64,000 nucleotides of DNA from Niabella sp. (lineage in GTDB: Bacteria > Bacteroidota > Bacteroidia > Chitinophagales > Chitinophagaceae), in contig JAPUDO010000076.1 of assembly GCA_027493055.1 (NCBI GenBank), positions 124,001 through 188,000 of the forward strand. The letters run 5' to 3'. Numbering within the stretch: the first letter of the stretch is position 1; the number at the start of each line of letters is the position of its first letter. Positions 3,901 to 27,687 of the stretch are shown piece by piece. The notes beneath the pieces are model-generated. The model was given only the letters and a program-made list of their open reading frames with translations. It was not told where the DNA came from and did no database searches. A program made the position numbers and the translations under genes.

Positions 3901-3997
3901 GTTCTCCAGCAAAAGCAGCACTGCATCCAATAATAAATAAACAAATAATGGTGCTAAACAAGCCGGCTGACAAGCTTCCCTGATTTGACTTTTGCAT
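974..3997 (-). CDS. Glycoside hydrolase family 2 enzyme with C-terminal discoidin-like module
   Basis: About 1007 residues from the ATG at 3997; an upstream in-frame ATG at 4030 adds 11 residues ahead of the signal peptide and is less likely. The N-terminus (MQKSNQGSLSAGLFSTIICL) is followed by FIIGCSAAFA, which could be a lipobox (Cys 25) or an SPI site. The order is GH2 sugar-binding domain (about 40-210), immunoglobulin-like domain (about 220-330), TIM barrel (about 335-600), Ig-like/DUF4982 region, then a C-terminal beta-sandwich resembling F5/8 (discoidin) modules near 870-990. In the barrel, YECGNE places the acid/base Glu at about 454 and WAMEYS a probable nucleophile Glu at about 511. 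GH2 members include beta-galactosidases, glucuronidases and mannosidases; the exact substrate cannot be read from the sequence. It has its own promoter with the shared PUL operator. Confidence 0.9.
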   Translation of the reverse strand: MQKSNQGSLSAGLFSTIICLFIIGCSAAFAGEPPPQRKYNFNNNWELHIGEVPAEAYSSPSGRSVQKDSFGGAWKQVTLPAAWNEDDAFKKDIRDLSTGIVWYRKQFKLPASAKGQKIFIEFEGIRQAGDFYVNGQLVGFHENGVTAFGFDITELVKFGSEENIIAARIDNDWDYRERATNTRYQWVDKNFNANYGGIIRNVFLHITPKLYQTLPLYSNLKTTGVYIYAKDFDIKGRSATIHASSEIKNETDKIQQVGYAVDITDINGKPVKSFTGEKITIRPGETKNIGAAAKVNGLNFWSWGYGYLYKVKTSLLVNNKPVDVVTTRTGFRKTAFKEGMIYLNDRVMMVHGYAQRTSNEWPALGTSVPPWMSDYSNGLMVESGGNLVRWMHIAPSKQDIESCDRVGLMQAVPAGDAEKDVEGERWNQRVRVMHDAIIYNRNNPSIIFYECGNESISEAHMKEMKALRDKYDPHGGRAIGSREMLNSKEAEYGGEMLYTNKSAHIPMWAMEYSRDEGSRKYWDEWTPPYHKDGDGPLYNGQNAASYNRNMESHALENVKRWYEFWRERPGTGKRVSSGGVNIIWSETNTHHRGEENYRRSGEVDALRIKKQNYYAHEVMWDGWVNPEKYRAHIVGHWNYKPGVKKDMFVISSADKVELKVNGKSSGFGEKSDGFIFTFKNIEWKPGSITAIGYDANNKQVCTAAVKTAGEPVALRLTAIKRPAAFLADGNDVALIEVEVVDAKGRRCPTALNMIHYTVEGPGEWRGGMAMGPDNYVLAKGFPVEGGVNRFMVRSTTTPGTITVQAKADGLKAASIRLATQAVVVENGLAKYLPGAELSPVLTRGATPATPSYTVSRKAIEVKQAVAGANADKVKQGYDDNELSDWVNDGKLGTAWIEYELEREALIEEIAVKLNNFRSRTYPLVITVDGKEVFNGSTKTSLGYYTIQCKPVRGKKVRIRLAGSAESGKGTNEVEVGGKKLDDGVARDDAKSKGTLSIIEVEFYERVK

Positions 3998-4184: not shown

Positions 4185-4228
4185 CGAAAATAAAAGACTC
4201 CTGGTTTTTATTATCCTGTTGTGTCCTG
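4185..4228 (-). promoter_or_regulatory. Promoter of the GH2 gene with CAGGA-type direct-repeat operator
   Basis: Read on the minus strand, the operator CAGGACACAACAGGATAA occupies 4211-4228. It is followed after 18 bp by TATTTTCG (4185-4192), one mismatch from the Bacteroidota -7 consensus TAnnTTTG. The same arrangement recurs at 20228-20272 and 21809-21852. The operator is where a -33 element would be, as expected for an activator-dependent promoter. Confidence 0.6.
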
Positions 4229-4465
4229 CTCCGGTACAGGAAGACCGGAAAGTTCCGGGGTAGTTCATAAGAACATCCATCCTGGTACCTGGGACAAAAG
4301 CGGATTCCCCAATTTGAACGTTACTTTAACTGCAAGCTCGGAAAATGATTTTCGCGGCAGCTATTCTTATTTCCGGTCGCACTCTCCAGGCACTTCAATA
4401 GTACTATACGAATTGGGAGCTTCTAATGGATATGAGAGTCATTGGTGGGATTGCTCGGGTAGCAG

Positions 4466-4597
4466 GTCATTATTTATGCCCATATCGAACGTACAGGCAA
4501 CGAAGCATTCATCGCAGGCACTTTTAGTACGGAGCAATACCAGGGCAATGGTCTCTACGCAGAAGTAAAAAAAATAAAAATCACGGCAAAGGCTTAA
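4466..4597 (+). pseudogene. Possible remnant of the 3' end of an unrecognised gene
   Basis: In this frame the translation is 43 residues, beginning VIIYAHIERTGNEAFIAGTF and ending in KKIKITAKA before a TAA at 4595. The strand-alternating pattern looks like the C-terminus of a small secreted beta-rich protein, but the frame is closed upstream by a stop at 4460 and has no start. An overlapping open frame in another register (4221-4568) has odd composition and is probably fortuitous. The rest of 4031-4626 holds the GH2 promoter and leader hairpins and no intact gene. Weak call. Confidence 0.3.
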
Positions 4598-4626
4598 ACG
4601 CTCTTTCCGGTCAGACCAGGCTATAA

Positions 4627-6438
4627 CTATTTCCATCTGAATGGCAAATAGTACTCACGAGCCATAAGCTTTCCCTGTGCCGCACCTGCATTACCACCGT
4701 CTTTTCTTAACTTATCGCCTACCCTGCCGGCAATATATGCAGGATCGTCCCTCCTGATGGCCACCCTTAACAGGTCTGCCCAGCGCTGACCCTCATAAGC
4801 CAGTTCCAATGCGCTTTCATCTACCAGCATATTTTCTACCGCAATAGTGCTGTCGCCCACCAATTGTCTTGATGGTAAATAAGCCCTGCCCCTGAGCCCT
4901 GCTATTTCCCTGTCATTGGCCCTGGTTTGAGGGTAGCCGGCCGAACTTTCCAAGCTCCTTGCATCAAATTTATAAGGATTGGGCAGGGAAAGCGTATTCT
5001 GAATGATATCGTAATCATAAGGAGGGTTCTTAGGATTTAAATCATAAGTACTTCTTATACCCTGGTTTACTACAGCAAAGCCAAGCTTAGGATAACCATC
5101 ACGGTTGGCCGCCTCCGCAAAATGCTGCCATACAGAGGCTGCCCTGTATAACCACCACTCACCTGTACGGGTAGTTGTATTAATAGTAGGAAGAAAGGAG
5201 CTGCCATCTATACTATAATACAGGTATTTCATAATAACCGGCTGGCCGGCAATGGTTTTATAGGTAAATCTTCCGCGGGCATCAAAGGGAACACCATTCT
5301 TCTGCGTTTGGCTGTTCCAGTTATCCATAGCCTGCTGGGACGGTTGTACAAGATAACTGCCGCCTACATTGGAGAACAGGTCAATAAAAGGATTTTTAGG
5401 CTCAAAGCTGCTGCTGAACGGCAAATGCCAGATCCATTCCCAGTCAAACTGCTGATCGTAACTAAGCTTGCCGCGAGAGAACATAGAACGCCAGCCTTCG
5501 GTATTACTTTCGTATAAAGCATTGAGATCGCTTTCCCGGTAGCGAACATACTGCACCGCCAACTGGTTGCCGTTTTCTACAGCAATTACACCTATTATTT
5601 TATAATAGTTTTTCTTGGTATTTTCATTGCCCTTATCATCGTAGTAAGAAATAATTTGCCGGTAAGCTACTGCTGCTTTGTTATAGGATGAAGGATCGTA
5701 GGCGGCATTCCATAAATAGAGGTCGCCCAGCAAAACTTTCTTCATAATAAAGAATTTCTCTGTTCTATACTGATCCACTGTTGTCATTAAAGAGGCTGAA
5801 CTGTTATACATTTCGAGCGTAGGCAGACTTTCCATGGTTTTGATGAGCTCTGCCAGCAGCTGCCTGAATGGTAGCCATTGATATTTCGATTCATCTTTTA
5901 CATCCTGTATGGTTGCCAAAGGATCCGTTATGTAAGGAATACCAACAGCGCCTTTAGCATCTTTACTGAAATGGATGCCTAACTGAAGATATACCCAGGT
6001 ACGAACCGAAGCTACATCAGCGTAACGTTCATTGTATTCGTCCTGCTTCATCTTTTTTTCCGCCAGCATGATGTTGAAATTCTTCATCACATCATTACAG
6101 TTCAAGATCACCTCGTAAAAAGGCGCCGGATCTATATACGGATTATCTTCCGTAACATTATGATTGCTCAGCTGCCTGAGGTACTGGTCGGCATTTACAG
6201 TAGGCGACATAAGGTCGGCCCTAAGCTCATTAAGCAACACATAAGGCTTGGCCAGCTTAAGCAATTTGCCGTAAACACCCAATACCGCCGCATCTGCGTC
6301 AAACACATTGCGGTAAGTTTGCTCTTTGGCAAGACCAGATTCTGGTTCTATATCAAAAATTTTCTTGCATGAAGACAGCGCCAGGCTACCAGCCAGCACC
6401 GGCAACAAAAAACAGTATTTGAAAAAATTAGATTTCAT
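4627..6438 (-). CDS. SusD/RagB-family outer-membrane glycan-binding lipoprotein (last gene of the PUL operon)
   Basis: 603 residues. The N-terminus MKSNFFKYCFLLPVLAGSLA runs into LSSCKK, a clear SPII lipobox with Cys 24, so the protein is lipid-anchored, probably on the cell surface. The following FDIEPESGLAKEQTYRNVFDADAAVLGVYGKL is typical of SusD N-terminal helices, and the C-terminal ALELAYEGQRWADLLRVAIR matches the conserved SusD/RagB C-terminal motif. SusD proteins form the lid on the SusC barrel and bind oligosaccharides. The gene starts 23 bp after the stop of a SusC gene, forming the second SusC/SusD pair of this operon. At 603 residues it is slightly longer than usual. Ligand specificity cannot be inferred. 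Confidence 0.95.
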   Translation of the reverse strand: MKSNFFKYCFLLPVLAGSLALSSCKKIFDIEPESGLAKEQTYRNVFDADAAVLGVYGKLLKLAKPYVLLNELRADLMSPTVNADQYLRQLSNHNVTEDNPYIDPAPFYEVILNCNDVMKNFNIMLAEKKMKQDEYNERYADVASVRTWVYLQLGIHFSKDAKGAVGIPYITDPLATIQDVKDESKYQWLPFRQLLAELIKTMESLPTLEMYNSSASLMTTVDQYRTEKFFIMKKVLLGDLYLWNAAYDPSSYNKAAVAYRQIISYYDDKGNENTKKNYYKIIGVIAVENGNQLAVQYVRYRESDLNALYESNTEGWRSMFSRGKLSYDQQFDWEWIWHLPFSSSFEPKNPFIDLFSNVGGSYLVQPSQQAMDNWNSQTQKNGVPFDARGRFTYKTIAGQPVIMKYLYYSIDGSSFLPTINTTTRTGEWWLYRAASVWQHFAEAANRDGYPKLGFAVVNQGIRSTYDLNPKNPPYDYDIIQNTLSLPNPYKFDARSLESSAGYPQTRANDREIAGLRGRAYLPSRQLVGDSTIAVENMLVDESALELAYEGQRWADLLRVAIRRDDPAYIAGRVGDKLRKDGGNAGAAQGKLMAREYYLPFRWK

Positions 6439-6461
6439 ATTTCAGTAATCACTTTTAAAAA

Positions 6462-9400
6462 TTACAAACCAAATCTTACCCCTGCCTGAACGGACCTGTG
6501 CTGAGGAGCAAGCATAAGATCCACCCCCTGCCCTAACGGGCTTATGGTGGCGCTCATTTCAGGATCATAGCCAAGATACCTGGTAAGTGTGAATAAATTA
6601 TTTCCGGTCACATATAATATAGAATACCTCAGGAATTTTGTTTTTACAGGCAAATTGTAAGAAAGTGTGGCAGCCTTCAGCCTGAAATAAGAGCCATCCT
6701 CTATCCATCTGTCTGAAAAGCTGCTGTTTCCAACAGGGTCACCATACAATGCACGGGGCATATCTGTTACCTGCCCCTCCGCTCTCCACCGGTTCAGCAC
6801 TGCAGTTGTCTGATTGTTGAAGTTTGATGCGGACTCAAGCTGTCTTCTTGTATAATTGTAAATATCATTCCCTTTTGTAAAGGTGAACAAAACATCCAGT
6901 GTAAAGCTTTTCCAGATAACACTGCTTGAAACCGATCCAAAAAAATCAGGATTGGGATCGCCGATAACCTGGCGGTCCTTGTCATTTATGATCTTATCGC
7001 CATTTACATCCACGAAACGGACATCGCCACCGCTGAACGGTACTGCCGCACCATTCGCCGAAATAACGCTTAACCCGGCTGCCGTTGCTTCTGCATTGGA
7101 GCTATACACACCATTTGTTTTATAACCATAAAACAAATTGGGTACATTATTCATGCTGCTTAATATATATCCATCAGCATAGGAAGTTACAATATTGTTG
7201 GGCAGCTTTTTTATTAAGGATTTGTAACGGGCTATAGTAAAGCCCAGGTCCCATTTTAAAGAAGCCTGGTTAATAACCCTTCCGTTTACAGATGCTTCCG
7301 CACCCGTTGTTTGCATAGTGCCGCCATTGGTGTAGGCATGGGTAATACCAGCTATGGAAGGCAGCGTTTCATCCACTATCATTTTATAGGTCATATTACG
7401 GTACCCATCGAGGCTAACGTTGAGGCGCTCATTAAAAAGAGCAGCGTCAATACCTATATTTGCCTTGTGCGCGCTTTCCCATTGCAAGCCATCGTTTTCA
7501 AAATTCCCTCTTACCAGGCCCTGTGTGCCCAGGAAGTTCTGAGATACATAATACTGCCCTGTTGTATAGTTTGCCCCGTAATTGCCTGCCAGCGTATAAT
7601 TAATATAATATTCCCTGGCCTTATAATTCATAATATTATCATTGCCCGATATGCCATAAGAAGCCCTTAATTTCAGCAGGTCAACCACCTCGCTGCCAGC
7701 CATAAATTTTTCTGATGAAAGCAGCCATGCAGCGGCAAGAGAAGGCGAAAGCGCAAAACTGTTCCCGTTTACAGGCAACGCACCGGGCACATTTTTACCA
7801 AACCGGGAAGATCCATCAGATGCTATGTTGAAGGAAACAATATACTTGTCGAGCAGAGAGTAATCGGCATTAAAATAAGTATTCAGCCAGCGGTACCTTA
7901 TCATGTCGCCGCCTACCCTTCTCAGGGCCGCTACGCCATTGCCTACGCTCTTCAGCTGGTCTGTAGCAGAGTTAGCACCCAGATCCCAGTCCAGCTCTGT
8001 TCTTGGCGCCATGAACCGCACACCTGCACGTGCAGAAAAGCGGTGCACGTTCCTGAATACTTTATCGTAAGAAATACGGGTATCGTTGTACACACCCAGT
8101 ACTCTTTTGGTTTGTGCACCCAGGCGACTATCAATAATAATATCGTTCCCTGTAGTATCATCCGCCACGCCCTTTCGGGGAATAAACAGGTTTTCCCGAA
8201 CCTTATCAAGAGAAAGAGCTATAACTGTGCTTACATTCAGCGTTTTTGAAAGTGTATAATTGAACCCTACCGATCCCAGGAAACGATAGTTCTTATTAAG
8301 CCCCGACATTGTATTAATTAAGGCCGCAGGATTACTTACATTAAAAATATCAGTGTCTGTGATATCCGGCGATTGAACCCCGTCAGCCGACATTTCATTC
8401 ACACCCACAAAGGGAGATTTTACAAGCGCTGCAAAAACAGGATTGGTTTTATAGGCCAGCCCCTGATCCTTTAACTGCTGATCATTATACGTAAAGCTAA
8501 GATTGGCAGTGGCCGTGAGGCGCTTGCTTAAATTGAGATCGGCATTGAAACGGGTATAATAGCGTGTAAAACCGGTTGATTTAACTACACCCCTATTGGA
8601 TAAATAACCCAGAGAAAGCGCATATTTCGCAATATTATCTCCGCCGGTTACTTTAATGGAATAGCTTTGAAGTGAGCGGTTATCAAACACCTGTTTTTGC
8701 CAGTTGGTTTGATGATGATAGCGGTAATATTCTTCATTAGCAACATCATCATTCATATAAGGCAATGCCTGAACTTTGGATGTTTGCATGCCGGAAGACT
8801 GCAACAGATCACCAAGATAAGTTCTGTATTGGCCTGCATCCATTACCGGCAGACCTGCCGGCGCAAAATTAACGCCTCCATAGGCGGCCACGTCAATGCG
8901 TGTGCCCAGCTCCTTTGCCCTTGCTGTTGTGATATTGATAACGCCATTGGCACCTTTTGTTCCATACGTAGAGGAGCCGTCTTTGATCACAGTAATGTTA
9001 TCAATATCCTTGATATCAATATAAGCCAGCGGGTTAGTATAGCTATTGGATATGAGAGAGCCACCATAATCGGCATTATCATAAATAACCCCGTCTACCA
9101 CAATCAGGGGCTGGTTGGATGTATATAATGAAGATACACCACGCAGGAACAGGTTGGCTCCTGCATTTGGCGTTCCGGACCGGCGAATAGCGTTCAGGCC
9201 CGCAACCTTACCCTGCAAAAAAGCATCGGGAGTAGCAGTGATATGCGCCCAGCTTCGCTGGGTTTGTACTAATGTAACCGAATAAGGAGTACGGTTAAGC
9301 GGCTGAACGGCAAAAGGAAGATTGCCCCCATCGTAAAAAGAAGCATAGGCCTCTTCAAATAAAGATACGGAAACAGTGTTCCTGCCTTTCAGCGCCACTT

Positions 9401-9665
9401 CTTTTGACTGATACCCTTCACCCTGTAACATCAGGGTTATATCATAATTAGGCGCCTGCAGGGTAAAGTTCCCTGCACTATCTGTAATGGCAGCTGCATA
9501 ATCCTGGTAGGTAACACGTATAGCAGACAGGGGCTGATGCGTAGCGGCATCCGTTACTGTTCCTTTTACCTGCACCCCTTTATTTACTGCATCGTCCTGC
9601 GCGTATGCCGGCAGCATTGTGCATAACAAAAGCGGAACAATTAATCCCTTCTTAAACACGTTCAT
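6462..9665 (-). CDS. SusC/RagA-family TonB-dependent transporter (second pair)
   Basis: About 1067 residues from the ATG at 9665, whose product begins MNVFKKGLIVPLLLCTMLPA, a clean signal peptide ending YAQ; an ATG at 9686 is 7 codons upstream. After it comes a carboxypeptidase-regulatory-like domain (VQVKGTVTDAATHQPLSAIR, about 30-105), then the plug. The usual SusC hallmark DGVIYDNADYGGS is present (about 195), then the 22-strand barrel ending in VRFGL. The plug entry (TPYSVTLVQTQRSW) is divergent: I do not see the common DEVVV-type TonB box that the first SusC of the operon has. SusC proteins take up oligosaccharides across the outer membrane using TonB energy. It is followed at once by its SusD partner and preceded by a FAS1 lipoprotein gene. 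Confidence 0.94.
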   Translation of the reverse strand: MNVFKKGLIVPLLLCTMLPAYAQDDAVNKGVQVKGTVTDAATHQPLSAIRVTYQDYAAAITDSAGNFTLQAPNYDITLMLQGEGYQSKEVALKGRNTVSVSLFEEAYASFYDGGNLPFAVQPLNRTPYSVTLVQTQRSWAHITATPDAFLQGKVAGLNAIRRSGTPNAGANLFLRGVSSLYTSNQPLIVVDGVIYDNADYGGSLISNSYTNPLAYIDIKDIDNITVIKDGSSTYGTKGANGVINITTARAKELGTRIDVAAYGGVNFAPAGLPVMDAGQYRTYLGDLLQSSGMQTSKVQALPYMNDDVANEEYYRYHHQTNWQKQVFDNRSLQSYSIKVTGGDNIAKYALSLGYLSNRGVVKSTGFTRYYTRFNADLNLSKRLTATANLSFTYNDQQLKDQGLAYKTNPVFAALVKSPFVGVNEMSADGVQSPDITDTDIFNVSNPAALINTMSGLNKNYRFLGSVGFNYTLSKTLNVSTVIALSLDKVRENLFIPRKGVADDTTGNDIIIDSRLGAQTKRVLGVYNDTRISYDKVFRNVHRFSARAGVRFMAPRTELDWDLGANSATDQLKSVGNGVAALRRVGGDMIRYRWLNTYFNADYSLLDKYIVSFNIASDGSSRFGKNVPGALPVNGNSFALSPSLAAAWLLSSEKFMAGSEVVDLLKLRASYGISGNDNIMNYKAREYYINYTLAGNYGANYTTGQYYVSQNFLGTQGLVRGNFENDGLQWESAHKANIGIDAALFNERLNVSLDGYRNMTYKMIVDETLPSIAGITHAYTNGGTMQTTGAEASVNGRVINQASLKWDLGFTIARYKSLIKKLPNNIVTSYADGYILSSMNNVPNLFYGYKTNGVYSSNAEATAAGLSVISANGAAVPFSGGDVRFVDVNGDKIINDKDRQVIGDPNPDFFGSVSSSVIWKSFTLDVLFTFTKGNDIYNYTRRQLESASNFNNQTTAVLNRWRAEGQVTDMPRALYGDPVGNSSFSDRWIEDGSYFRLKAATLSYNLPVKTKFLRYSILYVTGNNLFTLTRYLGYDPEMSATISPLGQGVDLMLAPQHRSVQAGVRFGL

Positions 9666-9716
9666 TGCTATTGGTAATAATCGCATGTTATATGGTATAT
9701 AAGTTAATTTATCTTT

Positions 9717-11213
9717 TTACAGGTCGGGTACCAGCTTAATATAATCAAGGTTTAAACTGTTGGTACCATTGCCCGTAGAAGCATTTGCCGTGAGATACAT
9801 ATCCAGAGATCCATAAGCCGACTGTGTGTAATTACCTAAATACACTTCATTATAATTATTGGGTGTAACAGCTATACCGGTAGCCGGCGTAAGGGGAAGA
9901 TAATTGGCTGCAAAAGCTCCCATTGCCAATCGCTGGTTAAATGTTACCGGGTTAACGGTGCTATTAACAGTTAAGGTATCATTAACCGCCACCCAATACA
10001 CTTTATAGGTGACAGAAGGCAGATTGGTTACACGGTAGTGAGCCCTTAATGCGCTGATGCCGTGGCCGTAAACAAATATATCGTTAAATTGCTCCCCGGT
10101 ATTGGGGTTTACGCGTAACCTCCTGAAAACTGCTGATACGTTATTCTGCCTCGGAGTAACTGCAAGCCCTGTGGCATCGTAAAAACCACGGTAATTTTCG
10201 CCCTGCACAATTACCGGTGGAACTTTTTCTGTAATAGCAAAGCCGGCTTTGCTGATAATGTATGCCACCCCGTTGCTAAGCTTTACTGTTCTCTCAATCT
10301 TTGTTTTGTCCATAGAGATATTTACGCCGAATTTAGACGTGAGCACCGCAGGCAGCTGGTCAATAGTATAATAGCCCTCAACTATTAAATCTTTCACCAC
10401 CGCGTAAGAAGCCTGGCGGGCAGCACTGTCTGCATCCCCGGTAACGGTTTTATAATACGGAGCCAGGGTTGCCACATCGGCAGCAAAGGCAGTGTTATTC
10501 AGCATCAAAAAGGTGTATTGCTTTGATTCATCTTCCAGATCGTACACATTTGTGTTAAATGAGTTCCTAAGCACACTGTCTGTTCCCGGCCGGTACACCG
10601 GCTCTCCGGTTTGGGAATTGATACTGTCTATAATGGCATGGGCAGGATCAAAAACATTACGCGTAAGAGAAAGGATATATGCACTCTGCCGGTACTCATT
10701 TTTAGAATTTCCCAGCAGTTCCCAGGCATTGAGGTAAACAGGTACAACACCGTCAATAACATGCAAAACACCGTTTCCTACTACTTTATCTTTTTGGGCA
10801 ATAGCCACTTCATCAAAACGGTTGCTTGAAAATTTTACGGTTTTTCCGTTAAGCATCGCTATCCGTGTTACAGAACCAGCATTAGCAGTAAGCCAGGATT
10901 GGAGGGCAATATGATTGCCTACAAAGGCCCTCAGCTTATCATTATCTGCAACAACAGCAGGATCAAGATTTTGAAGGGCGCTGTTCACAGGAGCAAACAC
11001 TGTATAAGTTTTAGTAGAGGCCAGCTCCTTATCAAGTCCTGTTTTTTGGAGATATTCATAGAATTTACTCAGGTTGGCATTCTGGCCAATCTCTTCCAGT
11101 AAACTTTTGCCAAGATCCTGGTTGATAAGCTGTGTATGGTTATCCCATTTTTTACAGCCTGCCAGGTAAAAAGCAAAAAAGAGCGTACACAATAAAGTGG
11201 TTTTTAAATACAT
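9717..11213 (-). CDS. FAS1 (fasciclin) lipoprotein with C-terminal beta-sandwich module
   Basis: 498 residues. MYLKTTLLCTLFFAFYLAGCKK is an SPII signal with lipobox LAGC. A first FAS1 domain spans about 45-160 (LSKFYEYLQKTGLDKELA, YTVFAPVNSALQ, NGVLHVIDGVVPV) and a second about 170-330 (YTFLMLNNTAFAADV, NGVAYIISKAGFAI). The last 160 residues are not FAS1. They begin PPVIVQGENYRGFYDATG and end SLNLDYIKLVPDL, a pattern resembling the closing strand of CBM6/CBM35-type carbohydrate-binding sandwiches. FAS1 domains mediate adhesion or ligand contact outside the cell. Placed between SusC/SusD pairs, a surface glycan-binding role is a reasonable inference. The CBM-like reading is tentative. Confidence 0.88.
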   Translation of the reverse strand: MYLKTTLLCTLFFAFYLAGCKKWDNHTQLINQDLGKSLLEEIGQNANLSKFYEYLQKTGLDKELASTKTYTVFAPVNSALQNLDPAVVADNDKLRAFVGNHIALQSWLTANAGSVTRIAMLNGKTVKFSSNRFDEVAIAQKDKVVGNGVLHVIDGVVPVYLNAWELLGNSKNEYRQSAYILSLTRNVFDPAHAIIDSINSQTGEPVYRPGTDSVLRNSFNTNVYDLEDESKQYTFLMLNNTAFAADVATLAPYYKTVTGDADSAARQASYAVVKDLIVEGYYTIDQLPAVLTSKFGVNISMDKTKIERTVKLSNGVAYIISKAGFAITEKVPPVIVQGENYRGFYDATGLAVTPRQNNVSAVFRRLRVNPNTGEQFNDIFVYGHGISALRAHYRVTNLPSVTYKVYWVAVNDTLTVNSTVNPVTFNQRLAMGAFAANYLPLTPATGIAVTPNNYNEVYLGNYTQSAYGSLDMYLTANASTGNGTNSLNLDYIKLVPDL

Positions 11214-11281
11214 CTTTTCTTATTTATAAGCAACGTGTGCAGTAATTATTTCATTTCAATATTCCCGTTGGTTACAGCCTG

Positions 11282-13018
11282 CTATGGAATAATGCTTCCA
11301 TCTCTTCCGAAAATAGGCCGCAGCTGGTTATCATTTACCGGTATAAACTGTATCATATCCAGCCAGTTCAGTTCCTGCCCGGTAGAGGATGCATGAGCAA
11401 ATGTCAACGTTATGGTGTGCCTGTCAGTAGTAGGCACATCTATAGTTCCCACCAGGCGCCCTACATTGTTACGATCGGGGGTGCTGTTATCTGTAGGCGC
11501 CTCAGTATATTGCTTATATCCTAAAGCTTCCAGCTCGCTGGGTGTACCCACAGGTTTTTGTTCGGAGAAGTCGAAGGTTCTCTGCATGGGCATCCCGTTA
11601 AAGTCAACCCGGTTAGGGAAAGCGGGGTTGTTAGTAGAAGCCCTTCCCCTGTAATAGCATACCCACACTTTATACCGGCCTTTTACCAGTAACGGCGTTT
11701 TAAACTCAATCCACTTATTTCTTGAGGTATTACCCTGGGGTATTCTTAAATAATCTCCGTTCCAACCATAATGGGTAGTGCTGGTTGCAGGCATACAGTT
11801 GTAAGCTACGGTACTGGTAGTGCTGGTAATAGCATACCATGATACATCGGCAAAAAACCCTTTTGCAATGTTATACCCGCCACCGCTGCTTGTTATGGCC
11901 GTTGCTGTGGTAGACTTACGAAAAACAGCTGTAAGCTTTCTCAGCTCGGGCTGGTCGCTGGGCTCAAAATCTACCCTGACCGGCATTCTTATTTTTACAG
12001 CAAAATGAGCTTTTGCTTTATGCACTACGCCGTTATTGGAAGTAACATCACTGTTAACACGATCCAGTTCAACTCCCAGCTCGTGTTTGCCATTGAAAAC
12101 AACATCATTGATCAGCACGCTTTGCCCCTGCAGCGATGGCGTAATTACTTCGAGAGGAGCCAGGGTGGGAATAGAAGTGATGGATACAATATCCGCTATA
12201 TACCAGGCATTTGCCAGAATATGGTAAGCTACATATAAATGCAGGCTGTCGGCAGGATTCTTGGGATTACCGGTGTTGGAATATTTTGCCTTTAAAGCGG
12301 CATAGCTGGTAATACCTGAATCGGCAAGCGCTTTGTTTGTTTCTGCTATCACGGTAAGGAAGCGGCGGGTAGTATCGGGGTTATTCACAATGTTGAGCGA
12401 ATCGTAATACCCCGTTTCTTTCAGCGCCTGTGTAAAAATGGAGTAGTCTGCATTGGCCTCAATTGTTTGCGCAACAGTTTTGGTAGCTGCCTTTAACACA
12501 TGGTCTACAGCATGTATAATGCCGTTAGATAAAACAATATTCGGCTGTACCACCAACGCCTGCCTGTTAATTGTATAGCTGGATACACCATTTACATTTG
12601 TAACACCTGTAACAAGGTATTGGCCTAACATGGTTACATTGGCTAATTTCCCATCGGTGAACGATCCTGTCTGGATGGTATCTTCCAGCAGGTGAAGCTT
12701 TACAATATCCTGAAGCTCCTGTACAGAAAAAGCGTCAATAGAAGCCTTACCGGACTCCTGCAGGAAGGCTTTTACCCCTTCGTTAGTAGGCGCAAAAACA
12801 GTATAAGAGCCATAGGCATTCAAAAAATTACTGTACCCGGCCTTTTGCAGCATTTTCGCAAATTCTGAATATTCACTGCCGTTTTCAGCCAGATAATCAT
12901 AAATATTTACATCGCTGGTAGTGGTGGTTACAATATCCACTTTTTTACAACCGGCTATACAGGCAAGTGCCATTACACCTGCTGACCATGCTATTATTAA
13001 AAAGTTTTTTGTTTTCAT
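11282..13018 (-). CDS. FAS1 (fasciclin) lipoprotein, two FAS1 domains plus C-terminal beta-sandwich
   Basis: 578 residues. MKTKNFLIIAWSAGVMALAC is followed by IAGCKK, an SPII lipobox. FAS1-1 covers about 45-180 (YTVFAPTNEGVKAFL, NGIIHAVDHVLKAA). FAS1-2 covers about 185-345 (YSIFTQALKETGYYDSL, NNGVVHKAKAHFAV). The C-terminal 230 residues (about 350-578) form another module, with KGRYKVWVCYYRGR, TIDVPTTDRHTITLTF and ELNWLDMIQFIPV. That resembles the ordering in CBM6/35-like sandwiches, where a ligand-facing surface is closed by an L-D-x-I/V-x-F strand. The gene begins 8 bp after the first SusD stop, so it is translated from the same transcript. Inferred role: surface capture of the glycan imported by the adjacent SusC/SusD. 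Confidence 0.88.
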   Translation of the reverse strand: MKTKNFLIIAWSAGVMALACIAGCKKVDIVTTTTSDVNIYDYLAENGSEYSEFAKMLQKAGYSNFLNAYGSYTVFAPTNEGVKAFLQESGKASIDAFSVQELQDIVKLHLLEDTIQTGSFTDGKLANVTMLGQYLVTGVTNVNGVSSYTINRQALVVQPNIVLSNGIIHAVDHVLKAATKTVAQTIEANADYSIFTQALKETGYYDSLNIVNNPDTTRRFLTVIAETNKALADSGITSYAALKAKYSNTGNPKNPADSLHLYVAYHILANAWYIADIVSITSIPTLAPLEVITPSLQGQSVLINDVVFNGKHELGVELDRVNSDVTSNNGVVHKAKAHFAVKIRMPVRVDFEPSDQPELRKLTAVFRKSTTATAITSSGGGYNIAKGFFADVSWYAITSTTSTVAYNCMPATSTTHYGWNGDYLRIPQGNTSRNKWIEFKTPLLVKGRYKVWVCYYRGRASTNNPAFPNRVDFNGMPMQRTFDFSEQKPVGTPSELEALGYKQYTEAPTDNSTPDRNNVGRLVGTIDVPTTDRHTITLTFAHASSTGQELNWLDMIQFIPVNDNQLRPIFGRDGSIIP

Positions 13019-13026
13019 TGCAGATG

Positions 13027-14532: not shown

Positions 14533-14545
14533 GTTTTTAATTTTT

Positions 14546-17500
14546 TTAGAATGAACCTGTTAAACCAATAGTAAATGTTTTTGAGGGTGGCGTCATTGAC
14601 TGATCGGTTGCCACGCGGAAGGGGTCGCTGCCCCGCAATGTAACTTCAGGATCCTGGCCGGTGTATTTTGTCCAGGTGTACAGGTTTTCAACTGTTACAT
14701 ATCCGCTCAGGTTTCTGATGCCCAGCTTTGCTGCCACATTCCTGTTAAATGTGTAACGCACCGTCAGCGTTCTGAACCTGAGGAACGAGGCATCTTCTAC
14801 ATACCTGTCGGACCCCAGCCAGTTATAACCCGAACCAAACAAGGCTCTTGGTATATCAGTCACATCACCTTCCTGGCGCCACCGCCTTAATACTGCAGTA
14901 CTCTGGTTATCGTAACCATACATATTGGTGGTTGTCATTTTGGTTTGGTTCACTACTTCATAGCCGTAACGATAGTTAAAGAAAGCTGTAATCTTAAGGT
15001 TTCCTTTATAAGTGGCGCTTGCTCCAAAACCACCGGAAAAGTTAGGATTACTGTTACCCAGATATACTACATCCATATAGTTGATATTACCATCATGATT
15101 CACATCTTCGTACATAGCATCACCCGGTTGAAAAATATAGCTGGCCGTTGGATAGTTGAATCTCATATAAACCGTTTGCCCGTTAGGCCCAATAATGGGC
15201 TGCCCGTCAGCACCCCTGGCAATAGTAGCATCCAGGTCCTTATACACCCCCTTGTACCTGAACCCATAAAAGGAGCCAAACGGATTATTTACCTGCATAA
15301 AAGTTTTGTATTGACCGTTGGCTGTAATATTCCCTTTTTCCGTAGGATAGAAAGGCGATATTTCGCGGATGATGTTCTGGTTCTGCGCAATATTGAAATT
15401 GAAATCTATCTGAAGATCTTTACTCTTATAAGGCGTTGTATTCAGACCGATTTCCAGACCCTGGTTATCCATGGTTCCCACGTTCATATCTACGCTGTTA
15501 AACCCGGTGAAGGAAGATATCTGCAGTCCCTGGAAGAAAAGATTTTTGGTGCGGTTCTGATAAACTTCAACATCCAGGCTCACCCTGTTCTTAAACATAA
15601 TGAGGTTGAATCCAAGATTCTGGCCGGTGATGGTTTCCCAACGCAGCTTCTTCAGCTCCATATTGGCAGGATAAACAGCGGCCTGCCCCAGGTATCCCCA
15701 ATCAAAGTCGGAATAAACATTATAAAATGTATAATCTTTACGGGGTGCATTACCACTGATACCGTAGCTCAGCCTTATACTCAAATCATCCAGCCATTTG
15801 TCAAATTTTTGCATAAACGGCTCGCCCGAAAGCCTGTATCTTGTAGATAATGAGGGGAAATAACCATAACGGTAGGCAGGGCCAAACCTTGAACTACCAT
15901 CCATACGTACTCCCAGGTTAACAATATACCTGTCCAGGTAGCTGTACTGGTTGCTGAATGTAGCGCCAATGCTTCTTGTTTGTGTTGTTCCCGAAGAAAT
16001 GGCCAGGTCTGCACTTTGCGTACGGGAGGGATCGGAAGGATCGGTAAGCAGGGAGGATGCCGTATTGGAAGTACGCGCTTCCTGCCTTACACTTTTATTG
16101 TCATACGTAAAGAAAATAAGTGATGACATATAATTGTGCTTCTTGTTCCTAATCTGCGGCGTGTAGATCAGGCTGGTTTTTGTTTGTACATTAAATACAT
16201 CCACATCGCCATCATAAGCACGGTTCACTGAAGTTTCTGTCCACGGGCGCCCGGTGGCTGTTTGAGGAAGAAAAGACTTATTCTTTGTATTGTTGATATC
16301 AAACTGTACGTCAAACACCGCATTCAATATATTCCGCACTACAGAATATTGAAGGTTAAAGTGAGGGGTTATTCTTTCTGTAGTAACATTATATCTTGCA
16401 TCGGTAGCCATCGCTACAGGATTTACGGTACCTATAATATTATTGCTGTTGTTAATACCGCCATATAATCCCTGCACATTGGATGCCGGAGAGAAAAAGT
16501 TAGGAGTTAAATTGCCAAACTCATCGTATTCATAAATTCCCATATTAGGCATTTTCTTATAGGCAATCTCCCGCAGGTTATTGGCATAGTTCTTATCATT
16601 ATCCGTATGAGAGAATGATACGTCACTGCGAAACTTTATTCTTGTAGATACATTATAATCCAGGTTAATGCGGGTACTGATACGGTTCAGGGAGGTTCCT
16701 ATGGTAGTACCTGTATTGTTCAGGTAGCTTACCGAAGCATAATAGCGTGCTTTCTCACCGCCACCCGTCATGGATAAATTATGATCCTGAACCTTTCCAA
16801 GCCGGGTAATAGCGTCCACCCAGTTGGTATTATTGCTGTAGTTATAGTACCAGTAAGGATCCTGCGGATCATACTGAAACTCTTTAACGGTTTGTGTATT
16901 TAATGGCACACCGTTCCTGTTCATGTATTCTTCGGGGATTAAGGTAGAATACTGGTCGCCGGTTAACATGGGAATAGCATTGGGCTGTTTTGTTACAGAG
17001 CCCTTAAAAGTATAAGTAAGGGTAGGTTTGCCCACAGCCCCTCTTTTTGTATTGATCACCAGAACACCATTGGCAGCCCTTGAACCCCACACAGCGGTTG
17101 CAGCTGCATCTTTCAGGATGGTAATATCCCGGATATCAGTAGGAGCAATATTGAGCAGGTTGGCATAACCCAGCTCATCAGCAGCGCCAAAATTGAAATC
17201 GGCCGGTATTTCTGTTTCGTAAGGCATACCGTCAACTACAATCAGCGGGTCAGTAGCGGAGTTGATAGAGGATGTACCACGGATACGTATCTGCATACCT
17301 GCACCTGGGTCGCCCGAAGAAGCAGCAATATCAACACCTGCCAGGCGCCCCTGCAATGCCTGATCAATAGATGCGGCCTGCATTTCTTCCATATCTTTTG
17401 CGTTGATCTTTACAGCAGAGGTGGTCATGTTCCTGCTGCTGATAGGCATAAGACCATTATCGGTTCTGGCCTGGGAGATAACCACCACTTCATCCATTCC

Positions 17501-17833
17501 TTTTACAGTTGTGCGTATGGTAACATTTATGGTAGTTCTGCTACCTATGGCTTGCATGATTGTTGATGTACCAATGTAAGAAAAAGACAGCGAGTCCGCT
17601 GTATTTTCTACACGAATGGCGTAGTTACCATCTATATCAGTTTCAACAGCTTTTATGGTACGTTGCTCAGCGTCTACTTCAGCAACAGTTACTCCCGACA
17701 GGGGCTTGCGGTTATCATCTACAACACGGCCCTGTACAGTAACTGTTTTCTGATTATCCTGGGCTTTTGCAACTGTATCTGCAAACAGAGATATAGCACA
17801 CAAAACAGCTAATTGCAGTATCAATTTTTTCAT
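14546..17833 (-). CDS. SusC/RagA-family TonB-dependent transporter (first pair)
   Basis: About 1095 residues from the ATG at 17833. A GTG at 17848 would overlap the preceding stop by one base, but MKKLILQLAVLCAISLFADT is the natural signal peptide. A carboxypeptidase-regulatory domain follows (VQGRVVDDNRKPLSGVTVAE, about 35-115). Next come the TonB-box region GMDEVVVISQAR, a plug with QALQGRLAGVDI and IRIRGTSSINSATDPLIVVD, and the SusC signature DGMPYETE. The beta-barrel ends in KTFTIGLTGSF with an aromatic C-terminal residue. It imports oligosaccharides using TonB/ExbBD. It sits directly behind the four-FAS1 lipoprotein gene and 13 bp ahead of its SusD partner. Confidence 0.97.
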   Translation of the reverse strand: MKKLILQLAVLCAISLFADTVAKAQDNQKTVTVQGRVVDDNRKPLSGVTVAEVDAEQRTIKAVETDIDGNYAIRVENTADSLSFSYIGTSTIMQAIGSRTTINVTIRTTVKGMDEVVVISQARTDNGLMPISSRNMTTSAVKINAKDMEEMQAASIDQALQGRLAGVDIAASSGDPGAGMQIRIRGTSSINSATDPLIVVDGMPYETEIPADFNFGAADELGYANLLNIAPTDIRDITILKDAAATAVWGSRAANGVLVINTKRGAVGKPTLTYTFKGSVTKQPNAIPMLTGDQYSTLIPEEYMNRNGVPLNTQTVKEFQYDPQDPYWYYNYSNNTNWVDAITRLGKVQDHNLSMTGGGEKARYYASVSYLNNTGTTIGTSLNRISTRINLDYNVSTRIKFRSDVSFSHTDNDKNYANNLREIAYKKMPNMGIYEYDEFGNLTPNFFSPASNVQGLYGGINNSNNIIGTVNPVAMATDARYNVTTERITPHFNLQYSVVRNILNAVFDVQFDINNTKNKSFLPQTATGRPWTETSVNRAYDGDVDVFNVQTKTSLIYTPQIRNKKHNYMSSLIFFTYDNKSVRQEARTSNTASSLLTDPSDPSRTQSADLAISSGTTQTRSIGATFSNQYSYLDRYIVNLGVRMDGSSRFGPAYRYGYFPSLSTRYRLSGEPFMQKFDKWLDDLSIRLSYGISGNAPRKDYTFYNVYSDFDWGYLGQAAVYPANMELKKLRWETITGQNLGFNLIMFKNRVSLDVEVYQNRTKNLFFQGLQISSFTGFNSVDMNVGTMDNQGLEIGLNTTPYKSKDLQIDFNFNIAQNQNIIREISPFYPTEKGNITANGQYKTFMQVNNPFGSFYGFRYKGVYKDLDATIARGADGQPIIGPNGQTVYMRFNYPTASYIFQPGDAMYEDVNHDGNINYMDVVYLGNSNPNFSGGFGASATYKGNLKITAFFNYRYGYEVVNQTKMTTTNMYGYDNQSTAVLRRWRQEGDVTDIPRALFGSGYNWLGSDRYVEDASFLRFRTLTVRYTFNRNVAAKLGIRNLSGYVTVENLYTWTKYTGQDPEVTLRGSDPFRVATDQSMTPPSKTFTIGLTGSF

Positions 17834-17847
17834 AATGCAGTTTTTCA

Positions 17848-20043
17848 CTAATTGGAATACTTTAAATAATTATCAATAAGATGAATAACCGTTCTGTTAG
17901 AAAGATTATTGCTTTGCGGCACAATTACATTAGCTGTCCTGTTGTTGATATCCGTGATCCGCATGCTTCCCGGCTGGCTGATCACAGTAACAGGCACTAC
18001 CTCACCCTCGCTGTTTTTCAGCATGGTTTCAAATGAACCAGATTCTTTCCCGTTTGGTACCAGGGTAAACCTTGCCAGGATATGATATTGTATAAAATTA
18101 ATTACCCGGGTTAGCTGTGCCGGTGTCCATGTAGATGCAGTTAAATTTGGCTCGCCAGTAGTAACATTGCCAGGCAGCACACCATCCTTTACCGCCTGTC
18201 TGATGGCTGCATTAGTAGGAAGGAATACAGTGTATAAGGTACCTGAAGTAGTACCGGTAACCTCGCCCGTAGTAGCCGTATAAAGTCCGGAGTTATTGAG
18301 AAACTGTGAAAAATAATAAAAATCCGATGCCGTGGAGCTGCCTCCAAGATTCATAATATGACGCCCAAAAAGGAAGGAGCTGTAAGTAAGTAATCCATCA
18401 AGATAGTAAACGGTGCCATTCCTGGCAACTTTTGCGCTATCAACCGCTACAACAGCTCCGGCATCCAGCGTTCCGGATGATATTACCTGACCGTTGTTCC
18501 ATTTAATATACTCCCCGTTGTAGGATTCTACAATGCCAGAACCGGCTAAAGAGGTTACATCTTCCGGTAATATACTTGTGTTTAATATACGTAAAAGCGT
18601 TTGGCGTATGGCCTCGCCCGAAGTAGTAGTGGTACCATTATTATAAGTGAACAGGTTACTGTTTACATCATAGTCATACCCCGCTGCCCGCAACACGGCA
18701 TCGGACATCATAAATAAAGTAAACTTTGCTGTAGGCGTACTAACCGCGTTTCGCAGATCTCCGCTCAGCAATCTTATCATAATAGAAAACTTAGGATCAA
18801 GATAAGCCTTGGCATATACTGTTGAAAATACATTGGCTTCCTGTACTTTGCCGGTACCATAAAAAGTTCCATTGCTCAAAATCCTGCGGTCAATAATATC
18901 GGTCTGCGGATCGAACCGGGCATCCTCACCCATAAAACTCAACGTAGAGCGAAACTGGCTTGGCCAAACCGCGGTTTGCCACATGTGAGCATTCAAAAAA
19001 TCCAGTATAATTGAGGTAGGAACATTATCAAAAGATTTATAATGCTCCAGCAGTACACTGTTTGCATAATTCAGCAATACATCATTCTTAGGTACAAACA
19101 TGGTCCATGATCCCTGCTGTCCGTCATTATCCTGCAGCTTGAAGTAATTTTCACTATTAGGCGCAAACGCCAGAGAGGTATTATACACTTTTACATATAC
19201 CTGCTTATTTTCGCCGGTTAATAATTTATAACGGTTGGACGCATCACTGTTAGCAGTAAAGCTTACAAGATATTTTTCAAATAATTTTCTAAACTCCCTA
19301 TACTCCGGTTTGCTCCTTAAATACTCCTCAATAGAAGGAAGCGGTGTAAGCACCCTGTCAATTTCATGTATCACTCCATTTTGAGCAGTAATATCAGGGG
19401 TTACAACTTTTGCCTCCGCTATATTAAAGCCGGTATATTGTGAATTGGGATAGAAATAATTATAGTCTGCAGCGGTAAGTCCTTTGCCGTTAAAATAAAC
19501 ATCCGTGAAATAGGTAAGGTACTTATTATTATTGTCGCCTGCTATATACCCGGTATTCCTGTTAGATTGGATGGTTTTCACAACCGTGCCGTTTTGCAGG
19601 GTATCATCATAAAAACCGGTATAGTATGCGGTACGGCGCCTGAACGCCTGGTCAGGTACCCAGCCTGCACTTGACTGATAATCGTCTATCCTGTTTTTAT
19701 CAAAAGCATTATATACAAGCATAAACTGGATGAGCGAACGGGCCTTGCTTGAATCCATCTTTTCAACAGACGTATTGTTTGCCGCAAAATATGCCTGGAA
19801 AGCTTCATCATTAGGAGCAAAAAAAGTCCAGTAGCCAGCATTGTCCAAAGTATTTTTATACCCGGCTTTGTCTATCACACCTAATAAATGCGAAAACTTC
19901 CCTTTTCCCTGCAATTCCGAATATATTGGTTTGGCAAGGTTATCGGGAACGCTGTAAAACTCATCCCAGGTTTTTTTACTGCATGCAGCAAACAGAAAGA
20001 CGAGCAAGCAAACAGTAAGGCAGTTAAAAATCCACTTTTTCAT
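17848..20043 (-). CDS. Large FAS1 lipoprotein with four FAS1-like repeats (first gene of the PUL operon)
   Basis: 731 residues. MKKWIFNCLTVCLLVFLFAACSKK is an SPII signal with lipobox FAAC. Four FAS1-like units can be traced by their conserved pairs of motifs. Unit 1 has YWTFFAPNDEAFQAYF and NGVIHEIDRVLTPL (about 45-235). Unit 2 has WTMFVPKNDVLLNY and NGTFYGTGKV (about 235-400). Unit 3 has FTLFMMSDAVLRAAGY and NGTVYYLDGLLTYS (about 400-555). Unit 4 has LYTVFLPTNAAIRQAV and NRTVIHLIDNYLKY (about 565-731). It is the first gene of a seven-gene operon and lies behind the operator promoter at 20228-20272. A role as a surface scaffold or glycan-binding lipoprotein is inferred from context only. The stop overlaps a potential GTG of the next gene. 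Confidence 0.9.
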   Translation of the reverse strand: MKKWIFNCLTVCLLVFLFAACSKKTWDEFYSVPDNLAKPIYSELQGKGKFSHLLGVIDKAGYKNTLDNAGYWTFFAPNDEAFQAYFAANNTSVEKMDSSKARSLIQFMLVYNAFDKNRIDDYQSSAGWVPDQAFRRRTAYYTGFYDDTLQNGTVVKTIQSNRNTGYIAGDNNNKYLTYFTDVYFNGKGLTAADYNYFYPNSQYTGFNIAEAKVVTPDITAQNGVIHEIDRVLTPLPSIEEYLRSKPEYREFRKLFEKYLVSFTANSDASNRYKLLTGENKQVYVKVYNTSLAFAPNSENYFKLQDNDGQQGSWTMFVPKNDVLLNYANSVLLEHYKSFDNVPTSIILDFLNAHMWQTAVWPSQFRSTLSFMGEDARFDPQTDIIDRRILSNGTFYGTGKVQEANVFSTVYAKAYLDPKFSIMIRLLSGDLRNAVSTPTAKFTLFMMSDAVLRAAGYDYDVNSNLFTYNNGTTTTSGEAIRQTLLRILNTSILPEDVTSLAGSGIVESYNGEYIKWNNGQVISSGTLDAGAVVAVDSAKVARNGTVYYLDGLLTYSSFLFGRHIMNLGGSSTASDFYYFSQFLNNSGLYTATTGEVTGTTSGTLYTVFLPTNAAIRQAVKDGVLPGNVTTGEPNLTASTWTPAQLTRVINFIQYHILARFTLVPNGKESGSFETMLKNSEGEVVPVTVISQPGSMRITDINNRTANVIVPQSNNLSNRTVIHLIDNYLKYSN

Positions 20044-20227
20044 TATTCTTATTTTTAGGCAGATGTAGTCTCATTTTGCAAAAAGACAAAGGCCTCCTGC
20101 AACTGCTACATGCAATCTTTTAATGCTTAGAAAATTGTTTTCAGTTTGTTTTGTTTAATCCTTTTTAATAACCAGTTTTTCTCAATCGTTTTTGTGTACA
20201 ACCGTATTCACTCATCGTCAACAATAA

Positions 20228-20272
20228 CGAAAGTAAATAAGTTAAAAAATTTTACCGTCCTGTTGTATCCTG
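20228..20272 (-). promoter_or_regulatory. Promoter of the seven-gene FAS1/SusCD operon with CAGGA-type operator
   Basis: On the minus strand, CAGGATACAACAGGACGG (20255-20272) is followed after 19 bp by TACTTTCG (20228-20235), one mismatch from TAnnTTTG. The half-sites CAGGAYA and CAGGAYR start 10 bp apart, one helical turn. No TTTG-type -33 box is present, so activation by a bound regulator is likely. A leader of about 180 nt separates it from the FAS1 start codon. Confidence 0.65.
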
Positions 20273-20307
20273 CTTTTTAGTATTTTTTTACTGTGTGCTG
20301 GAAAAAA

Positions 20308-21762
20308 TTATTTTTCCGGCATCTGCTTTAATAAAGCTTTCATTTCAGTAACTACCTGTGCATAGGCAGCGTTATGAGCCAGGTTATTTAACTCATGAGG
20401 ATCTTTAGGATGCTCGAAAAGCATATTTCCTGCACTGCCATGATCCCATTCTACATAATGCCAGCATGCTGTTCGCACAGACCTTCCCATTTTGTTTTTT
20501 ACCTGTGTAACGCTATAAGCCGGTTTATCCCAGGCCATCAAAGGATCCTTCAGCAAAGCCGAAAAATCATCCCCTGCAATATTTTCAGGCCCCGGTAATC
20601 CGCAAAGAGCAGCCAATGTAGGATACAGATCCAGCAGCTCTACAACCGCCGCACAACTTTGCTTTTGGCTGCCTGGCACAGCAATCAGCAAAGGAACACG
20701 AAGGCCTAATTCATACAATGAATAAGCTTTGGACCATTTACCTTTTTCACCCAAATGATATCCATGATCTCCAAAAAAAACTATAATAGTATTATCCTGT
20801 AAATTATTTTTTTGCAGTGCCTCCAGAACACGTCCTACCTGCGCATCCATAAAGCTGGTAGAAGCGAAGTAAGCTCTTTTCATTTCTCTTGACAAATCCG
20901 GAGATGAAGTACGGTTAATAAAAAGGTCGCTGTTAGGATTGGAAATAGATATCGCCGGAAAACCTTCAGGCGCCCGTGGCACAGTATCAAAATCAACCGG
21001 GAGCTTCATTTGACCCACTTTATAAAGATCAAAGAATTTTTGAGGCGCTGTAGGAGGACTATGAGGTTTTACAAAACCTACCGCCAGGAAAAAGCGATTT
21101 TTTTTATGTTGCTCCATCATTTCAATAGCTCGGGTAGCTGACTTATAGTCGCCATGAGAGGCACCGTCCCCGCTAAGCACAATAATCCTGTCAGAAGCTG
21201 CGCTTTTAGTCAATGGTTGTTCGGCAGGCGAAACTCCGGACTTATCAGCCTGAACATTTCCTGCAGGCGTTTTACCCCTCTCCGTGATCGCAGGATCAGT
21301 AGGAGTACCCCCTTCAGTCCAGGAAGGCTCATCATCAATACCACCGTGAAATATTTTCCCACTACGCAATGTTACATAACCATTCTTCCTGAAATACTCT
21401 GGCAATGTTACCCATTGGGGATTGATGCGCCTGAAATAATCATTATTATTGATAACACCCGTTTGGGTGGGATAAAGACCCGTCAAAAAAGAAGTGCGCG
21501 AAGGATTGCATACGGGGTATTGAGCATAAGCATTATCAAAGCGCATACCTTTCTCGGCAATCCTGTCTATATTAGGTGTAAGAGCAGAAGATCCGTAGGC
21601 CCCTAACTCAGGACGCAGGTCGTCCGACACAATAAAGAGCACATTATATTTTCCTTTAACACCCTGCTGGTTCTGTGCATACATAAATGTTACCGGCAAT
21701 AAAAAAAGCATAGCAAACAGCAGTATCTTTTTTTGCAGAAAAGCAAACAAATTATTTCTCAT
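20308..21762 (-). CDS. Secreted sulfatase, iduronate-2-sulfatase-like
   Basis: 484 residues. A signal peptide MRNNLFAFLQKKILLFAMLF ends near MYAQ at residue 30, so it works in the periplasm or outside. VLFIVSDDLRPELGAYG carries the metal-binding Asp pair (47-48). YPVCNPSRTSFLTG is the sulfatase signature C-x-P-S-R, with Cys 85 the residue converted to formylglycine. IVFFGDHGYHLGEKGKWSKAYS supplies the second metal and substrate-site Asp, His and Lys. The DDLRPELG and CNPSRTSFLTG wording is typical of the iduronate-2-sulfatase branch, suggesting a 2-O-sulfated uronic acid substrate. Specificity is inference. Maturation needs an FGE or anSME enzyme, and none is encoded here. Transcription is monocistronic or leads into the FAS1/Sus operon; its own promoter carries the shared operator. 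Confidence 0.93.
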   Translation of the reverse strand: MRNNLFAFLQKKILLFAMLFLLPVTFMYAQNQQGVKGKYNVLFIVSDDLRPELGAYGSSALTPNIDRIAEKGMRFDNAYAQYPVCNPSRTSFLTGLYPTQTGVINNNDYFRRINPQWVTLPEYFRKNGYVTLRSGKIFHGGIDDEPSWTEGGTPTDPAITERGKTPAGNVQADKSGVSPAEQPLTKSAASDRIIVLSGDGASHGDYKSATRAIEMMEQHKKNRFFLAVGFVKPHSPPTAPQKFFDLYKVGQMKLPVDFDTVPRAPEGFPAISISNPNSDLFINRTSSPDLSREMKRAYFASTSFMDAQVGRVLEALQKNNLQDNTIIVFFGDHGYHLGEKGKWSKAYSLYELGLRVPLLIAVPGSQKQSCAAVVELLDLYPTLAALCGLPGPENIAGDDFSALLKDPLMAWDKPAYSVTQVKNKMGRSVRTACWHYVEWDHGSAGNMLFEHPKDPHELNNLAHNAAYAQVVTEMKALLKQMPEK

Positions 21763-21808
21763 TGGCTTGAAGATTTTGTTATATGGAGCGCATCGCCAGG
21801 AATCTCTT

Positions 21809-21852
21809 CAAATTTATTTATTCTTTACCTCAAACCGTCCTGTTCTGTCCTG
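21809..21852 (-). promoter_or_regulatory. Promoter of the sulfatase gene with CAGGA-type operator
   Basis: On the minus strand, CAGGACAGAACAGGACGG (21835-21852) is followed after 18 bp by a perfect TAAATTTG -7 element (21809-21816). It lies 47-90 bp upstream of the sulfatase ATG. This is the best of the three copies. Confidence 0.7.
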
Positions 21853-27048: not shown

Positions 27049-27049
27049 T

Positions 27050-27652: not shown

Positions 27653-27687
27653 TATGCAAAAGTACAAATTCTGTTATTAATTAATGT

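Follow-up and report, generated by a model that had tools for sequence, protein, structure and literature searches.

A 10-bp direct-repeat operator at rhamnogalacturonan and rhamnose promoters of Niabella sp. and its relatives, and a GntR-type candidate for its reader

Which protein reads a direct repeat that stands at a fixed distance from the -7 element of three promoters in one PUL, and how far does the set of genes behind that repeat extend? The question arose from the initial annotation of the window, the whole 64,000-nucleotide stretch of Niabella sp. contig C76 that was analysed here, which had reported three minus-strand 18-mers ahead of PUL genes. These were located exactly at 4211-4228, 20255-20272 and 21835-21852, the half-sites start 10 bp apart, and the 18, 19 and 18 nt claimed between the 18-mers and TAnnTTyG were read in the sequence, which supports the view that one operator at a fixed -7 distance is common to three transcripts of one PUL. 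The operators, -7 elements and target genes are as follows.

4211-4228, minus strand: operator 1, CAGGACACAACAGGATAA, upstream of the GH2 gene; two half-sites, 10 bp apart
4185-4192, minus strand: -7 element TATTTTCG, 20 nt past the 16-mer core
974-3997, minus strand: glycoside hydrolase family 2 (GH2), target gene (Pfam; start at the first in-frame ATG)
20255-20272, minus strand: operator 2, CAGGATACAACAGGACGG, upstream of the FAS1/SusCD operon
20228-20235, minus strand: -7 element TACTTTCG, 21 nt past the 16-mer core
17848-20043, minus strand: operon gene 1, fasciclin (FAS1) domains (Pfam; ATG 20043)
14546-17848, minus strand: SusC-like TonB-dependent transporter (Pfam)
13027-14532, minus strand: SusD-like lipoprotein (Pfam)
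11282-13018, minus strand: second FAS1 protein (Pfam)
9717-11213, minus strand: third FAS1 protein (Pfam)
6462-9686, minus strand: second SusC-like protein (Pfam; Plug domain)
4627-6438, minus strand: second SusD-like protein (Pfam; weak match, barely above the cut-off)
21835-21852, minus strand: operator 3, CAGGACAGAACAGGACGG, upstream of the sulfatase gene
21809-21816, minus strand: -7 element TAAATTTG, 20 nt past the 16-mer core
20308-21762, minus strand: sulfatase, target gene (Pfam; ATG 21762)

The 16-mer core is CAGGAYASAACAGGAY, which the -7 boxes follow by 20, 21 and 20 nt; the box reads TAnnTTyG at all three window sites, in keeping with the Bacteroidota sigma-A -7 form TAnnTTTG. With up to 3 mismatches, a pattern built from these same three sites matched the window four times against 0.60 expected, a number reached by none of 100 shuffles. 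The GH2 gene most likely begins at ATG 3997 and not at the mechanical ORF start, TTG 4030. The operon under operator 2 holds seven genes, for three FAS1 proteins plus two SusCD pairs. Its gene order (window 4627-20043) recurs in relatives behind the same operator, to the extent that the fetched stretches cover it. The earlier statement that no regulator is visible held for the 20 window ORFs scanned, none of which lies right of 39433, an AbiEi-type antitoxin being the sole regulator-like protein. The window also carries an AbiEii toxin and DUF6088/AbiEi-like antitoxin pair at 26033-27667 (Pfam), likely a type IV toxin-antitoxin system, and a 1680-aa plus-strand ORF at 41528-46570.

Recurrence of the operator in the genome and the family

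When the 5.75-Mb genome was searched with the core at up to 2 mismatches, 42 matches were obtained versus 7 for the reversed pattern, and most of the 30 uncoupled-core matches that were read lay within ORFs and lacked a -7 box. Coupling the core to TANNTT at 17-21 nt gave six matches, all before PUL genes, and none for the reversed control; from these controls, occurrence of the operator by chance is rejected. The refuting outcome named in the initial annotation, numerous matches at unrelated genes or within coding sequence, thus did not arise for the coupled pattern; the uncoupled core does scatter matches inside ORFs. The six coupled matches precede pectin or rhamnogalacturonan genes at three loci: the PUL of the window, which continues beyond the left edge with GH106, melibiase, GH115 and GH2; a rhamnogalacturonan PUL on contig C46 (GH106, GH28, GH43, GH88, PL9, GH2, SusCD); and a GH2 gene with a divergent GH88 gene on C78.

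A sequence model trained on eight intergenic sites of this genome matched its training sites at E 6.0e-10 to 3.6e-7, with the next match at 0.05; operators 1 (C76:128180-128233), 2 and 3 are training sites, at E 3.6e-7, 6.3e-8 and 4.0e-8, respectively. A ninth site, CAGGATGGCGCAGGAT, with TAGATTTG 21 nt downstream, precedes a SusC gene and was accepted by eye at E 1.15. Two candidates, C34:1333 and C34:3567, were dropped as doubtful, one having no -7 box at the right place and the other being off consensus. The sites at C46:60776 and C46:74428 (L005 and L022) are near-identical for 75 nt past the operator and are a duplicated promoter with its leader; because both share this leader, they are not independent. 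Three half-sites stand in an array at C46:60761-60786, and in a relative (L157, genome G014, 9578-9613) four CAGGA half-sites with a 10-bp period precede a FAS1/SusCD operon, a further operator lying about 50 bp upstream. Two rhamnogalacturonan-PUL proteins had no Pfam match (C46:55160-56182, equal to L031:10160-11182, and L032:7908-9179); the former has relatives in four stretches.

Across the family, the strict coupled pattern was found in 13 of 147 genomes, the present one included, with none for the control. A second model, R2, built from 26 sites, matched 80 of 394 family genomes at E <=0.001; it blurs the -7 box because MAFFT left the 20/21-nt gap unplaced. The half-site consensus is CAKGAY (K = G or T) in a 10-bp repeat, 20 or 21 nt before the -7 box. 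A 29-site logo, which included three sites kept out of R2 (L093:10083, C34:3567 and L100:4279), showed both half-sites, a short RGTT-like tail and no conservation 21 bp upstream of the operator; the eighth letter of the -7 box was G in 16 sites and A in 11, TA..TT having been required for inclusion. Of 22 coupled family matches, 21 had 20 or 21 nt within a permitted range of 17-21 nt; the loci behind this spacing, the logo and the half-site classes described below were mostly fetched by patterns or models that contain the -7 box and allow 17-21 nt.

The 40 family loci that were read were selected from among the matches in the 80 genomes. In 61 stretches (56 site loci of relatives and five from the present genome, one of the latter without a site) the commonest families were SusC (40), GH88-type (21), FAS1 (21), GH28 (19) and GH106 (14), and PL11 rhamnogalacturonan lyases appeared at 3 of 50 further neighbours scanned, among the matches listed.

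The operator is also found at rhamnose genes. In L141, L144 and L161, which come from three congeneric genomes, its CAGGA form precedes rhaT-rhaEW-rhaI-rhaB, and the rhamnose operon of the present genome, on C87, carries CATGACAGTGCATGAC, a CATGA form whose -7 box follows after 21 nt. The 134 distinct sites comprised 37 CATGA/CATGA, 93 CAGGA/CAGGA and four mixed sites. The downstream gene was set mechanically, the enzyme class ('CAZyme') being a catch-all for a best match to any other reference protein; on this count 35 of the 37 CATGA/CATGA sites precede rhamnose genes, and the CAGGA/CAGGA sites divide into 41 enzyme-class, 17 FAS1, 16 Sus, eight rhamnose and 11 unassigned. The regulon was first described as three PUL transcripts; the shared operator stands, but that extent was too narrow, given three genome loci, a CATGA-form rhamnose operon and a family-wide distribution. 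The 18-mers are probably operators of a rhamnose/rhamnogalacturonan regulon read by a trans-encoded protein of the type described next, hereafter GntR-PBP.

A candidate regulator and the alternatives to it

The reader is most likely, as judged from co-occurrence and gene neighbourhoods, a chimera of a GntR winged helix and a LacI/periplasmic-binding-protein sugar domain. The copy in the present genome is:

C118:65387-66403: GntR-PBP, 341 aa, on a different contig from the window

Since its gene lies on another contig, GntR-PBP would act in trans, as the initial annotation had expected of the factor. It matches PF00392 (GntR winged helix; 31.2 bits, cut-off 27, residues 19-81) and PF13377 (C-terminal LacI/PBP sugar domain; 35.9 bits, cut-off 26.5) and shares 85-86% identity with proteins from Niabella ginsengisoli and N. 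hibiscisoli. The AlphaFold model of the N. ginsengisoli homologue (330 residues, pLDDT 84.5) matched LacI-type regulators at a TM of about 0.5-0.6. A paralogue, 39% identical, is encoded on C2. In two relatives, L155 and L174, a 343-aa GntR-domain protein is encoded divergently to sites; Peripla_BP_3 was above threshold in L155 and in the copy of the present genome, and below it in L174.

GntR-PBP (E 1e-40) was present in all 80 site genomes versus 203 of 394 overall, the lists being compared by eye (hypergeometric P 7e-28, relatedness ignored; within-genus P 1.2e-9, with 17 of 30 genera informative), and 123 of the 203 GntR-PBP genomes had no match to the CAGGA-trained model. In 20 GntR-PBP neighbourhoods, hand-chosen and several of them for a site on the same contig, rhamnose genes adjoined the regulator gene in 13, and the rhamnose promoter carried a CATGA operator in 10 of these 13. 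No convincing operator and no rhamnose gene adjoins GntR-PBP in the present genome (20 kb read).

Loci were also fetched by the protein alone, which frees their spacing from preselection by the -7 box. An operator with a -7 box was found in the flanks of 18 of 30 such loci, the other 12 having no strict operator, while 59 permuted half-sites scored 0.05 on average and only CAGKA, which includes CAGGA, scored at all (3). The 10-bp spacing was found in 22 of the 30 loci, the next best spacing in three; when -7 distances of 10-33 nt were examined, 18 fell at 20 or 21 nt, followed by four at 27 and three at 14. Among 80 loci in named genomes, which include Niabella, Niastella, Pedobacter and Mucilaginibacter and are likewise free of -7-box preselection, 35 had the operator, 49 rhamnose genes and 31 both, with 45 lacking a strict operator; of the permuted controls CAGKA scored 8 and the others 0, and the -7 distance was 20 nt in nine and 21 nt in 28, with at most five at any other. 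Both sets are the best-scoring loci, biased to the query clades, and related loci in them are not independent.

The near-complete split between CAGGA sites at PUL genes and CATGA sites at rhamnose genes could follow from two readers, GntR-PBP on the CATGA rhamnose sites and a second, related protein on the CAGGA PUL sites. This would accord with the 35 of 37 CATGA/CATGA sites before rhamnose genes, with the 74 of 93 CAGGA/CAGGA sites before enzyme-class, FAS1 or Sus genes, and with the GntR-PBP paralogues found in several genomes, the present one included. However, genomes G109, G106 and G035 each encode just one GntR-PBP (E 1e-30) but hold both CAGGA and CATGA operators; mixed sites adjoin GntR-PBP genes, the recognition helices differ little, with RDT kept, and CAGGA sites also occur at rhamnose genes (8 of 93). 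One reader is favoured because of the mixed sites beside GntR-PBP and the single-copy genomes with both types, and two readers are considered unlikely.

A reader of another class was also weighed. Passages of PMC3878776 place many Bacteroides PULs under hybrid two-component systems (HTCS) and describe RhaR of B. thetaiotaomicron as AraC-type, and the HTCS marker PF07495 occurs in 378 of 394 genomes; because the marker is nearly ubiquitous, co-occurrence gives no exclusion of an HTCS. The sites predicted for HTCS and AraC-type regulators in passages of PMC3878776 and PMC3870299, however, are direct repeats of about 21 bp, as against 10 bp here, and no HTCS-type family was recognised among the recurrent neighbour families beside the sites. 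No HTCS gene was present among 50 scanned ORFs of the window, C46, C76 and C78. Other regulators near sites were few: sigma-70 r2 at 3 and GerE at 2 of 51 neighbours (among the matches listed, 25 of 96 families), and response regulators at 2 of 50 (among the matches listed, 25 of 98 families). An HTCS or AraC-type reader was set aside as very improbable, chiefly for the 10-bp period. The same passages assign rhamnogalacturonan PULs and rhamnose catabolism in Bacteroides to the HTCS_Rgu and RhaR regulons, two separate regulons whose HTCS and AraC proteins use 21-bp repeats, whereas one operator architecture serves both tiers here. A DeoR-type protein might also be the reader; passages of PMC3870299 describe rhamnose regulators of that type, from other phyla, with repeats of 10-11 bp.

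Activation or repression at the -33 position

GntR-PBP resembles the AraR subfamily (B. subtilis AraR), in which a GntR winged helix is joined to a LacI/GalR-type C-terminal domain, and among PDB sequences the relative from L174 comes closest to 4egy, the AraR DNA-binding domain (E 2.6e-7). AraR is a repressor and its operators are palindromic. The likeness is one of domains only, because the operator here is a 10-bp tandem direct repeat, fixed over -33, and not a palindrome; the present system is moreover from Bacteroidota and concerns rhamnose and rhamnogalacturonan, arabinose being the sugar of AraR. In passages of PMC4494728 palindromic operators are the norm of the GntR family, and the use of sugars and polysaccharides is also under AraR control. 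GntR proteins on tandem direct repeats are described for NanR, NagQ and FarR (passages of PMC8012715 and PMC4494728), E. coli NanR being a repressor that reads (GGTATA)3 direct repeats (PMC8012715, in part); these have a different repeat and come from elsewhere in the GntR family (subfamilies FadR and HutC in the passage of PMC4494728), and those passages give no fixed -7 spacing. AusR of Zobellia galactanivorans, a GntR repressor of alginate PULs in a passage of PMC8286568, shares GntR-family control of PUL genes in Bacteroidota, but it concerns alginate and represses, and it is likened here by the description in that review.

The sequences themselves show the operator, its spacing and conservation, its target genes, and its co-occurrence and linkage with the GntR-PBP gene; from these we infer the identity of the binder, its ligand and activation in preference to repression. 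The winged helices of GntR-PBP would bind head to tail on the CAKGAY half-sites of the 10-bp repeat, such that the second half-site would overlie the -33 position, with the TAnnTTnG -7 box 20 or 21 bp away. With rhamnose or one of its metabolites as ligand, GntR-PBP on the operator would then stand in for the -33 contact and recruit RNA polymerase. If the -7 box occupies -12 to -5, as in a passage of PMC9723704, the 16-mer extends from about -49 to -33. The Bacteroidota sigma-A promoter has TTTG near -33 (PMC7366714, in part); in the logo and at the window sites this place is filled by operator letters, and the polymerase would therefore lack its own -33 contact.

The same protein on the same operator might instead repress, blocking RNA polymerase over -33 until a rhamnose derivative releases it. 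Relatives such as AusR and NanR are repressors (passages of PMC8286568 and PMC8012715), and an operator overlying the -33 element would likewise hold a fixed distance. Against this, the -7 spacing in the protein-fetched and named loci is tighter than blocking requires, and the missing TTTG at -33, together with the johnsoniae passage of PMC7366714, was counted against a repressor, which appears a rather unlikely though substantial alternative. Should GntR-PBP be the reader, an activator is favoured because of the tight -7 spacing and the missing -33 element, and this preference is kept modest because known relatives are repressors. The full proposal, in which the GntR-LacI chimera activates as a stand-in at the sigma -33 contact and the CAGGA/CATGA base sorts the polysaccharide and monosaccharide tiers, with one protein reading both, is put forward tentatively, at somewhat less than even confidence.

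The initial annotation did not recognise the operator as a published consensus, and none was found in the literature searched, which included few subscription papers and in which neither the operator nor a GntR-type regulator for rhamnose or rhamnogalacturonan in Bacteroidota was described. Operator copies lie beside the regulator gene in Pedobacter and Mucilaginibacter as well. A named candidate regulator and a short, readable operator offer a means of finding new rhamnogalacturonan genes, FAS1 proteins included, and the system offers a direct test of GntR-type proteins on direct repeats. In Chitinophagaceae, polysaccharide capture at the outer membrane and rhamnose catabolism in the cytoplasm would thereby be joined under one operator architecture.
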